A stretch of DNA of 64,000 nt from NCBI RefSeq assembly GCF_014905135.1, contig NZ_CP041406.1:1550001-1614000 (forward strand). Direction: 5' to 3'. Source of the DNA: Sulfurimonas paralvinellae. Its GTDB lineage: Bacteria; Campylobacterota; Campylobacteria; Campylobacterales; Sulfurimonadaceae. The notes beneath the pieces were generated by a model, which saw nothing but the letters and a program-made list of their open reading frames with translations, made no database searches and was not told the DNA's origin. Shown here piece by piece: positions 16,040-18,975 of this stretch (its first letter is position 1; every line of letters begins with the position of its first letter). The position numbers and the translations under genes were made by a program.

Positions 16040-17995
16040 TTACTCGGCAAATGTAAGATATTTGTCTAAAATAGATTCCAGTTTTTCCCGTGTCAACGGT
16101 TTTGAGAGATAATCATCGAGTCCTTCGGCCAACAACATCTCTTTATCCCCTTCCATAGCCATTGCAGTCAGTGCAACTATAGGCAATTCTCTGTCTCTCG
16201 GCATTTTATCTTTAATCTGTTTTGTTGCTATGATCCCGTTCATCTCAGGCATATCAATGTCCATGAAGATGATATCGTATCTGTTTTTTTCAGCCATTGA
16301 GACAGCTTCAAGCCCATTGGCGGCAGTGGCTACTTTGATATCATACTCCTGTAAAAGGATTTGAATGAGTCTTTGATTGATAAGATTGTCTTCGACGACC
16401 AAAGCAGTCAGTCTATGTTTTAACTGCAGCTCGTTTGTCTCTTCTTTTTTCGGTTCAAATTTATGAACCGCATAAAGATGTTTTGCCATATTGCTTGGCA
16501 AGATTGGTTTATGAATCACTTCATCGACAATATGCGTCAGTTTTGTCTGTAGTTTTTCATGCTCTTCCAACAGAAGTGTTATCGGTGCTTTTTTAGAATA
16601 CGTTCCGAGTTCAAGCATCCATGAAGAGTCATTTTGATTGCCGACAATATAAAGCGCATCTATATCATCGTAAAGTGTCTCATCAAGAAGATTTGATTTG
16701 ATGACATCAATAGCAAAAGCTCTGAGATAGATCGTTAAAAAGTTTGCTTCATCCACTCTTGAGTTATCAAGCAGTAGCACTTTTACTTTGCGTTTTGGCA
16801 TCATTTTATAGTTTTGACCTTCAGAGTCTTTAAAATCAAGTACAAAGTTTACATATGTGCCATTATCTTTCTCACTCGTTATTCTCAGCTCAGAACCCAT
16901 CAGTTTTGTAAGTCCGTGTGAGAGACTAAGTCCGACACCCATTCTCTGGTCTGCCTGATTTCCAGCAGTAAAAGGCTCATACATAAAGGCGATCTGCTCT
17001 TCTGAAATGCCTTTGCCGTTGTCTTTGACTCCAAAACCGATGCTGCAGGCACCGTTTTGTGCACGCTTGAGAACTTTAACTTCAAGGATGACCTTACCGC
17101 CGCGAGGTGTGAACTTAATGGCATTTTGAGTAATGGCATTCATGATCTGTAGAATCTTATTGATATCACCTGTCAGTTTCTGCGGAATTTTAGGGTCTAT
17201 GAATGAAAGGACTTTCACCCCTTTCTCTTCTCCGGCTTTATAAAAATGGTAGGCGAGTTTTTCAATCTCCGGCAGCAGATTAAACGTTTCATTCTCCAAT
17301 TCAAGGCGACCTCCCTGGAGCTGTGAAAGATCTAACAGAGTTTCAATATTCGTCATCAGACTTTTCGATGATTTTGAAATCATATTAATATATTCAAGTT
17401 GTGTAGCATCAAGGGAAGTCTCTTTAAGAAGTTCTACAAAACCAAGTATCCCGTTCATAGGTGTTCTAAATTCATGTCCTATATTGGCTAAGAACTTAGT
17501 TTTGAGTTTTTCTACTTCTTTGGTTTTCAATCTCGCCTTATGTAAACTCGTCACATCTCGCAATTCTAAGATATAAAGATTTTTATTATGGGGGTAGATA
17601 TGACAATAAGCATCGATAACAAGAACTTCATTCGTCTCCTGTGATGCTAAACTAACACGGTAACCATCACTTTTATATTTTTTGATGTAGTCAAGCCAGC
17701 TTTTGTCAGACTCTGTAAATATCTCTTCGCTCTCATTTAAAAAGACATCTCTTATACTCTCTTTTTCTCTTTTAAAATCATTCATATCATGATAGGACAT
17801 GGTTTCTAAAAACTTTTTATTTGCCCATATCCACCCTTCGCTCTCCAAGAAGCAGAGTATCATATTCTCATTTTTATTGACAATGTATTTAAAAAAGTTA
17901 TTATCTAGATAGTGTGAAACATCATCATCTACTATAATCGGCTCACGTCCTGCCTCTTTTTTATCACTGCCAAATATCATTGAAAAAAATCCCAT
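16040..17995 (-). CDS. Hybrid histidine kinase with a degenerate and a C-terminal receiver domain
   Basis: Cytosolic hybrid sensor kinase of 651 aa. Order: a PAS-like N-terminal domain (about 35-150); HisKA with NIGHEFRTPMNGILGF (phospho-His about residue 174); HATPase (about 265-400, with NAIKFTPRGGKV and GVGLSLSHGL); a weak receiver-like domain (about 405-515) that lacks the acidic pair and phospho-Asp; and a good receiver (about 525-645) with VVEDN, the phospho-acceptor in FMDIDMPEMNG and the KPL lysine. A longer TTG start at 18010 is possible, but GGGGGA lies just before the ATG at 17995, so I use that. No membrane segment is seen, so it probably senses an internal signal. No separate regulator is adjacent. 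Confidence 0.88.
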   Translation of the reverse strand: MGFFSMIFGSDKKEAGREPIIVDDDVSHYLDNNFFKYIVNKNENMILCFLESEGWIWANKKFLETMSYHDMNDFKREKESIRDVFLNESEEIFTESDKSWLDYIKKYKSDGYRVSLASQETNEVLVIDAYCHIYPHNKNLYILELRDVTSLHKARLKTKEVEKLKTKFLANIGHEFRTPMNGILGFVELLKETSLDATQLEYINMISKSSKSLMTNIETLLDLSQLQGGRLELENETFNLLPEIEKLAYHFYKAGEEKGVKVLSFIDPKIPQKLTGDINKILQIMNAITQNAIKFTPRGGKVILEVKVLKRAQNGACSIGFGVKDNGKGISEEQIAFMYEPFTAGNQADQRMGVGLSLSHGLTKLMGSELRITSEKDNGTYVNFVLDFKDSEGQNYKMMPKRKVKVLLLDNSRVDEANFLTIYLRAFAIDVIKSNLLDETLYDDIDALYIVGNQNDSSWMLELGTYSKKAPITLLLEEHEKLQTKLTHIVDEVIHKPILPSNMAKHLYAVHKFEPKKEETNELQLKHRLTALVVEDNLINQRLIQILLQEYDIKVATAANGLEAVSMAEKNRYDIIFMDIDMPEMNGIIATKQIKDKMPRDRELPIVALTAMAMEGDKEMLLAEGLDDYLSKPLTREKLESILDKYLTFAE

Positions 17996-18063
17996 AATGT
18001 TATCCCCCAAAAAAAATGTCGTAATTTTGATTATATCACAAAAAAAGGATAAAATTGCTTTTT

Positions 18064-18332
18064 AGACTTCTTTCATAACCTCTGATACTCTTCAGAGGTC
18101 TAAAAAGAGTTAAGATTGTGCAAAATGTTTTTTGAAGCGTAGCCGTAGCTACGGTGATGAAAACTTTTGTGCAAGATTGATTCTTTTTAGACCTCCCTTC
18201 GGGTAAACTATACAAAAAGATATTCTGTGTTGGATAACCTTCACCGTAACTACGGCTACGCTGAAGAACATCCGCCTTGACTATCATATTGTATAGTTTA
18301 CTGAAGAATATCAGAGGTTATGAAAGAAGTCT
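18064..18332. repeat. Nested inverted-repeat (MITE-like) element upstream of nth
   Basis: A 32-base arm at 18064-18095 is repeated inverted at 18301-18332 with a single mismatch. Inside are GAGGTCTAAAAAGA (18095-18108) and its exact complement (18182-18195), a pair around GTAAACTATACAA (about 18202-18214 and 18289-18302), and two inverted copies of a CGTAGCCGTAGCTACGG-like unit (about 18138-18155 and 18244-18261). No transposase gene is present. The right arm runs to within 2 bases of the nth start, so it overlaps that gene's ribosome-binding region. Short open frames here are not gene-like. It fills the 338-base gap between the kinase and nth. Confidence 0.75.
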
Positions 18333-18333
18333 T

Positions 18334-18975
18334 ATGAAAAAAGCAACAAAAAAAGAGATTCAAGAAATTCACAAAAGATTTATTCAAAGATACAGCGATG
18401 CCGTTACCGAATTAAAATACAAAAATGCCTATGAACTTGTCGTGGCAGTTGCACTCTCTGCGCAATGTACAGATAAACGTGTAAACCTTATCACACCGGC
18501 ATTGTTTGAGAAATACTCCTCACCAAAAAAGCTGGCGGAAGCGGATATTGACGATGTTAAAAAACTTATAAACAGTTGTTCGTTTTTTAATAACAAGGCA
18601 AAAAATATTATAGCCATGGCCAAACGTGTCGTAGAGGTCTATAACGGTGAGATACCTATGGATGAAAAAGAGTTGCAGACACTTGCCGGTGTAGGGCAAA
18701 AAACAGCAAATGTCGTGATGATAGAGTACACCGGAGCTAATCTTATGGCCGTTGACACCCATGTATTTCGGGTTTCTCATCGTTTAGGGCTTAGTAATGA
18801 CAAAACAGCCAAAGCGACAGAAGCAACGCTCGTAAAAAAGTTTAAAAACGACCTGCATGCACTCCATCAGGGGATGGTACTTTTCGGACGTTATATCTGC
18901 ACGGCAAAAAATCCAAAATGTGATGAATGTTTTTTAACCGACCTTTGTAAGACAAAAGAGAGTTTCAAGGTTTAG
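18334..18975 (+). CDS. nth: Endonuclease III
   Basis: Base-excision repair glycosylase/AP lyase that removes oxidised pyrimidines. The protein is 213 aa. It has the helix-hairpin-helix LAGVGQKTANVVM with the catalytic lysine in QKTA, the catalytic aspartate in VDTHVFRVSHRLG, and a C-terminal 4Fe-4S loop with Cys spacing C-x6-C-x2-C-x5-C (CTAKNPKCDECFLTDLC). A longer TTG start at 18277 would translate the inverted repeat; the ATG at 18334 gives the family's usual length and N terminus. Confidence 0.96.
   Translation: MKKATKKEIQEIHKRFIQRYSDAVTELKYKNAYELVVAVALSAQCTDKRVNLITPALFEKYSSPKKLAEADIDDVKKLINSCSFFNNKAKNIIAMAKRVVEVYNGEIPMDEKELQTLAGVGQKTANVVMIEYTGANLMAVDTHVFRVSHRLGLSNDKTAKATEATLVKKFKNDLHALHQGMVLFGRYICTAKNPKCDECFLTDLCKTKESFKV

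Follow-up and report, generated by a model that had tools for sequence, protein, structure and literature searches.

An inverted-repeat element, most probably a MITE of an IS5-type transposase, at the start codon of nth in Sulfurimonas paralvinellae

The window analysed here, a stretch of 64,000 nucleotides of the Sulfurimonas paralvinellae genome, carries an inverted-repeat element of 269 bp (18064-18332) that we interpret as an IS5-type MITE whose insertion at nth was tolerated, with an end that could be used as a ribosome-binding site and perhaps with a promoter in its gene-side hairpin. We give this reading as a whole a probability of about 85%. That the element is a MITE of an IS5-type transposase is close to certain, as its ends equal those of IS5-type insertion sequences in relatives, it is dispersed, and its site is empty in relatives. 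Use of the end repeat as a ribosome-binding site at nth has, judging from the sequence, an even chance, and a promoter in the gene-side hairpin (hairpin B) would be rather unlikely. As a MITE the element is ordinary; its notable parts are an interior that is kept under different ends and a fusion, in one orientation, to start codons.

Architecture of the element

The inverted repeat is real. Its terminal arms of 32 nt, at 18064-18095 (AGACTTCTTTCATAACC..., plus strand, matching the ends of an 896-bp insertion sequence described below) and 18301-18332 (plus strand), are 97% complementary, with one mismatch, and enclose three inner inverted pairs (18095-18130/18160-18195, 18136-18157/18241-18262 and 18203-18225/18279-18301); a fifth pair (18058-18071/18094-18107) straddles the left end. 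The repeat search agrees with the original prediction on the arms, their single mismatch, the 269-base span and the three inner pairs, an arrangement far beyond chance.

The predicted fold resembles a cloverleaf, in which an outer stem carries two large hairpins of ~100 bp each and a short CCC/GGG hairpin. Hairpin A (18095-18195, plus strand), which is distal to nth and was delimited from repeats, fold and the alignment of copies, has GTGCAA on both sides of its stem and the tip GCGTAGCCGTAGCTACGGTGA. Hairpin B (18203-18301, minus strand), which is proximal to nth and was delimited from repeats, fold and a hairpin model, has an internal loop TCAAGGC / AACACAG, the second strand of which reads AACGCAG in most copies. 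The 21-base tip core of hairpin A (18137-18157, plus strand, an exact match to the search pattern) recurs with one difference at the tip of hairpin B (18241-18261, minus strand), and the two hairpins are separated by a CCC-TTC-GGG mini-hairpin (18195-18203, plus strand) that is found in both DNA and RNA folds and that all 30 of the 30 copies aligned keep as CCC-NNN-GGG. Folded as single-stranded DNA the element reaches -71.7 kcal/mol, versus a shuffle mean of -21.6 (z -16), and as RNA -131.3 kcal/mol, versus -55.5 (z -18); none of 200 dinucleotide shuffles folded as well. It is short and has no transposase gene, the longest ORF that touches it besides nth being one of 83 aa on the minus strand.

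Dispersed copies, empty sites and partner transposons

Six such elements, five with AGAC ends and one with GGGC ends, were found in the genome of 2.08 Mb (2 contigs), and a model of hairpin B has 12 matches there, two in each of the six. The other copies in this genome are 95%, 93%, 86% and 75% identical to the window copy, and one partial match (L006) proved to be a full element with different ends. Among 59 other genomes 17 were matched (18 of 60 with the own genome counted). The hairpin core is absent upstream of nth in all 22 of the other same-genus loci, for which 400 nt were covered in 19 and 50, 236 and 206 nt in the remaining three. The empty site of genome G007 reads ...GGATAAAATGGCTTTT and then ATG, where the window has ...GGATAAAATTGCTTTTT, the element, a single T and ATG. 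There is likewise no element within 75 nt at the mqnD-like site in 14 of 14 same-genus loci compared (a second mqnD-like locus of G014 being left out) or at the gmhB site in 13 of 13. The sequence is thus multi-copy and missing from its site in relatives, the opposite of the unique, conserved single-copy leader that the original prediction had named as evidence against a mobile element. In genome G016 a solo end repeat (TTATGAAAGAAGTCT, L190) lies ~43-58 nt upstream of nth, and is perhaps an independent insertion or its remnant.

The search for a matching transposase succeeded in relatives. L225 contains, at 1451-2346, an insertion sequence of 896 bp that has the AGAC ends and is flanked by ATT on both sides, and similar insertion sequences with AGAC ends occur in L226 and L227. 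The 896-bp element has two overlapping frames with HTH_Tnp_4 and DDE_Tnp_4 matches above their cut-offs; against the NCBIfam IS5 model NF033581 the frames score 59.2 and 109.4 bits, each below the 140-bit cut-off. The N-terminal 75 residues of its transposase have matches, at the protein level only, in 10 of 135 genus genomes (E<=1e-8), one of which, G152, has different ends (AGACTTCTCCTAAAACC) and carries at least 10 identical-scoring copies of the related insertion sequence with those ends (L228, L239, L246). The GGGC ends frame a different element, of 1258 bp (L287), whose transposase of 350 aa carries DUF772 and DDE_Tnp_1 and scores 256.7 bits against the same IS5 model, above its 140-bit cut-off. 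Neither the N-terminus of the 896-bp element's transposase (E<=1e-8) nor the IS5_4 family (E 0.01) has a match in the own genome, and since no such IS5-type transposase was found there the window copy is probably an orphan. An IS5-type transposase would have moved the MITE in trans and then been lost from this genome.

Target duplications were counted on 53 of 67 end pairs (37 AGAC, 16 GGGC), some pairs being spurious and 14 rows dropped by a filter that asked for AGAC/GTCT with one mismatch or exact GGGC/GCCC, and for pairing at 17 or more of 24 end bases. Identical 3-bp flanks, mostly AAT or ATT, occur in 16 of 37 AGAC copies versus 6.2 expected from mismatched flanks, and 2-bp and 4-bp identity in none of the 37; GGGC copies have 4-bp duplications in 9 of 16 versus 2.0 expected. 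The family therefore has the target-site duplications that the original prediction proposed to look for, though the window copy itself, flanked by TTT and TAT, has no clean one. The 3-bp duplications of the AGAC copies fit the ANT duplication of the ISL2 group of the IS5 family. The TA duplication that is a trait of IS630 was considered and rejected, with 2-bp identical flanks in 0 of 37 copies versus 7.4 expected. Deleted forms of the transposon also exist, among them a shortened insertion sequence of 336 bp (L172) and 46-bp palindromes that contain nothing but the two end repeats (L165 6-51, L166 110-156 and L173 1045-1090), of which those of L166 and L173 have ATT at both flanks.

The junction with nth

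The nth gene, for an endonuclease III of 213 aa from its ATG (18334-18975, plus strand; TIGR01083, 233.4 bits vs a cut-off of 211.7), begins a single base beyond the end of the element at 18332, which bears out the earlier statement that the element abuts the start codon. It overlaps only a longer ORF reading, from TTG 18277. This TTG, within hairpin B, opens a 232-aa frame (18277-18975) that continues in frame into nth, so that gene callers or automatic annotation may choose a start for nth within the element. A short frame (MKEVL, then the stop TGA) that begins with the ATG at 18320 overlaps the nth ATG.

The ATG of nth in G007 and G013, and that of a menaquinone gene in L311-L314, is preceded in these relatives by a TAAAAT-like box that ends 6-7 nt away, so that leaders there were probably very short. 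The MITE would have landed in such a very short nth leader, just before the ATG, and the insertion may have been tolerated because the terminal repeat offers, in its purine-rich outward end, a possible ribosome-binding site: a purine run AAAGAAG (18323-18329, plus strand) stands at Shine-Dalgarno distance from the nth ATG, its function there being putative. Just outside the element, and also at the empty site, is a promoter-like TTGATT-17-TAAAAT (18027-18055, plus strand), a consensus match that a sigma-70 scan found once versus 1.3 expected in shuffles. From this old promoter a transcript would start at the left end, placing the whole cloverleaf in the mRNA and hiding the purine run in the outer stem; the predicted nth leader including the element reaches -137.8 kcal/mol (z -16) in a fold where the purine run is paired.

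Copies of the AGAC type may also bring a promoter of their own in the gene-side hairpin. The -10-like boxes of the window copy, TATAGT (18292-18297) and TATCAT (18282-18287, the one scored in the hexamer count given below), both in the gene-side arm on the plus strand, are weak; the sigma-70 scan listed neither, nor any other promoter inside the window copy. No intrinsic terminator was found within 17950-18360. An effect of the element on nth expression, as originally suggested, is plausible.

Spacing and orientation at start codons

All five known copies of the window's subfamily end just ahead of a start codon, at distances of 1, 1, 1, 1 and 2 nt. The genes concerned are nth, a PF02621 menaquinone gene, gmhB, an MlaD-like gene and, in G031, murG, of which the last three each lie closely behind another gene. 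The outward end in this subfamily, GAAAGAAGTCT or GAAAGAGGTCT (GATAGAGGTCT in L016), provides in each case a purine run at Shine-Dalgarno distance, and only one of the five copies (L004) has a 3-bp duplication. A mobile piece that ends 1-2 bases before the starts of such genes would be a way to rewire the translation starts of housekeeping functions. A single-hairpin element with other ends (TTAGAACTC..., L263 in G301) also stops directly before an ATG, that of an MnmE-like frame.

The simplest alternative, a neutral MITE inserted by chance and without function, whose position at start codons is only an effect of which insertions survive, keeps an appreciable chance, though one short of even. 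MITEs frequently adjoin genes (PMC3733652), the majority of the other AGAC copies are more distant from any start codon, and the GGGC copies near starts have no orientation bias (hairpin A distal in 6 of 11). Chance insertion is harder to reconcile with the spacing of the subfamily, in which 5 of 10 ends lie no more than 2 nt from a start versus 1 of 77 other AGAC ends (Fisher 4e-5, for a post hoc grouping, as the subfamily was delimited only after its start-codon pattern had been seen). Nor does it account for the orientation of those AGAC copies that lie no more than 40 nt from an ATG or GTG start, which have hairpin A distal in 21 of 24 cases (p 0.0003, in a count that may include short ORFs that are not genes and in which copies from the same genome are partly dependent on each other). 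A -10-like hexamer (at least 5 of 6 positions) is present at the B end of 22 of 37 AGAC copies, at the A end of 5 of 37 and at the B end of 2 of 16 GGGC copies; two copies that are apparently mis-oriented (L059 and L088, neither among the 24) give 24 of 37 and 3 of 37 for the B and A ends of the AGAC copies when turned by hand. A promoter that reads out of hairpin B would explain both the orientation bias and the B-end hexamers, and would leave the purine run free.

Why the hairpin arms stay paired

Of the 98 pairs compared across 30 full AGAC copies, 58 have changed on both sides, and 95.9% of cells pair; double changes fill 324 cells, where shuffles give 86 and sliding gives no more than 82. 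With four near-invariant G.T pairs set aside, G.T accounts for 44 of 2815 cells, fewer than the 119 mismatches, and among 107 close pairs of copies 44% of the changed pairs have changed on both sides. Template switching, by which one hairpin arm is copied from the other, is described for hairpins (PMC8794818), and arm-to-arm copying of this kind would fit the aligned copies better than selection on RNA by way of G-U steps. The four G.T pairs, GTGCAA and the TCAAGGC/AACGCAG motifs resist arm copying, so that something else probably holds them.

These observations bear on a second alternative, in which the element is a structured 5' leader selected as RNA and the cloverleaf in the nth mRNA hides or shows the start site and so regulates translation. 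The strength of the predicted leader fold, with its paired purine run, would favour such a role, as would the fixed orientation towards the gene, the conserved non-pairing motifs and the four near-invariant G.T pairs. We nevertheless consider it improbable: the paired changes came about with nearly no G-U steps, which DNA arm copying explains better, the neighbouring genes of the copies share no common pathway, and no Rfam family reaches its gathering score.

In G016 an ORF with the motif NHYHLLIE (L158, 2-676), like that of Y1 (RAYT) transposases, lies ~1.2 kb from a solo terminal repeat. This ORF, the strong hairpins and a GTAG in the tip core might suggest a REP/BIME-type palindrome that a RAYT (Y1) transposase mobilises in single-stranded DNA form, a very remote prospect for an element of 269 bp (versus 20-40 bp for REPs, PMC3733652) with terminal repeats, 3-bp target duplications and a DDE-type partner, and of the earlier suggestion "MITE or REP-type" only the first half, supported by dispersed copies, empty sites, target duplications and the IS5-type partner, has stood.

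One interior, several ends

The interior of the MITE has a wider distribution than its AGAC ends. Within the phylum, the hairpin model matches 21 of 200 genomes, the own genome included, and 12 of 47 genera. The exact 21-base tip was found at 60 loci of a collection of species genomes, 51 of them in named Campylobacterota groups and 9 in seven other MAGs (Bacteroidales, Saprospirales, Flavobacteriales, Uhrbacteria, Staskawiczbacteria, Gemmatimonadetes and Succiniclasticum), versus ~0.1 chance matches by our own estimate and with MAG contamination possible. In four of the seven (L069, L072, L087, L107) the tip belongs to a single hairpin that has terminal arms of its own to close it; L077 has a short stem only, and L058/L095 and L099 have no arm match around the tip. 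Arms were present at 26 of 30 inspected loci, mostly as elements of 267-284 bp with two hairpins or of 165-177 bp with one; L268 and L270 have inner arms only.

The same two-hairpin interior occurs between at least five mutually dissimilar ends: AGACTTCTT, GGGCACCTC, ATTACCGCACC, AACTGACC and TCACTACCAGC. Eight end types were distinguished by eye, and we claim five, since a shuffle test found some alike (TTAGAAC-GGGC, p 0.003; TTAGAAC-AGAC, 0.02; TACTACC-ATTACC, 0.02; AGGGTGG-TTAGAAC, 0.04); the remaining three may be diverged forms. As the AGAC and GGGC ends match two different transposons, with 3-bp and 4-bp duplications respectively, one interior is framed by the ends of two transposases. 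Exchange of ends around a common interior is the simpler reading; ends and interior may instead have diverged slowly together. A MITE normally depends on its ends, with an interior that is filler. In this family it is the interior that is conserved and the ends that vary, and one may ask what selects or copies that interior.

We put forward tentatively, and with less than even confidence, that the two-hairpin interior, with its TCAAGGC / AACGCAG loop and CCGTAGCTACGG tip, is a persisting structured cassette that has swapped its terminal repeats several times, has thereby been carried by different IS5-type transposases, and might be kept because some factor recognises the folded DNA or RNA; in one branch it would have become a mobile start signal, with promoter and ribosome site, fixed at start codons. 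In eight copies (L059, L071, L078, L079, L088, L096, L211, L212) the hairpin tips are lengthened by small palindromic modules (CCCCAAGGG, CCTGCGGG, TCGGCTTTGCCGA), which look as if hairpins grow at the tip. A shortened element in L073, at the same site as L029, consists of the left half of hairpin A and the right half of B, fused at their common core.

Comparison with known systems

We found no published description of the element in a search from which most subscription journals fall outside, so that this is no proof of its being unpublished; four of its core strings occur in no paper of the literature searched, and papers that pair miniature inverted-repeat transposable elements with Sulfurimonas or Campylobacterota held nothing on it. 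Searches of 50,697 phage and 72,556 plasmid records gave no match at E 1e-3, and the exact 18-base core is in none of the viral contigs. Comparison with described structured RNAs (Rfam 15) gave six matches in 17900-18500, all below gathering scores.

REPs and GTAG-tagged palindromes (PMC3733652) are likewise dispersed, palindromic and able to form hairpins in mRNA, but one of their ends carries an unpaired tag, GTAG or CGTC, where the present element has paired AGAC...GTCT ends, and the GTAG repeats are associated with Y1 transposases. The PATEs and SMRs of Haloquadratum (PMC3119063) are also small, mobile, palindrome-rich and free of a transposase, but PATEs have no terminal repeats and are of IS605-type origin, whereas the present element has terminal repeats, and SMRs differ in having no target duplications. 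Closer are the insertion sequences of the IS5 family: the ends and duplications of the AGAC and GGGC MITEs match those of two elements found in relatives, both with hits to the NCBIfam IS5 model and the GGGC one above its cut-off, from which the MITE differs in lacking a transposase gene and in an interior with no visible resemblance to theirs. Among miniature elements, MITEAba12 of Acinetobacter (PMC6382973) is alike in being small and non-coding, in its insertion-sequence terminal repeats, in some fusions to gene starts and in a possible outward promoter, and target duplications accompany a part of the copies in both (40% for MITEAba12, 16 of 37 here). MITEAba12 is, however, 111-114 bp long with 9-bp duplications, in contrast to the 269 bp, two hairpins and 3-bp duplications of the element described here, and the present element has an interior in common with other end types.
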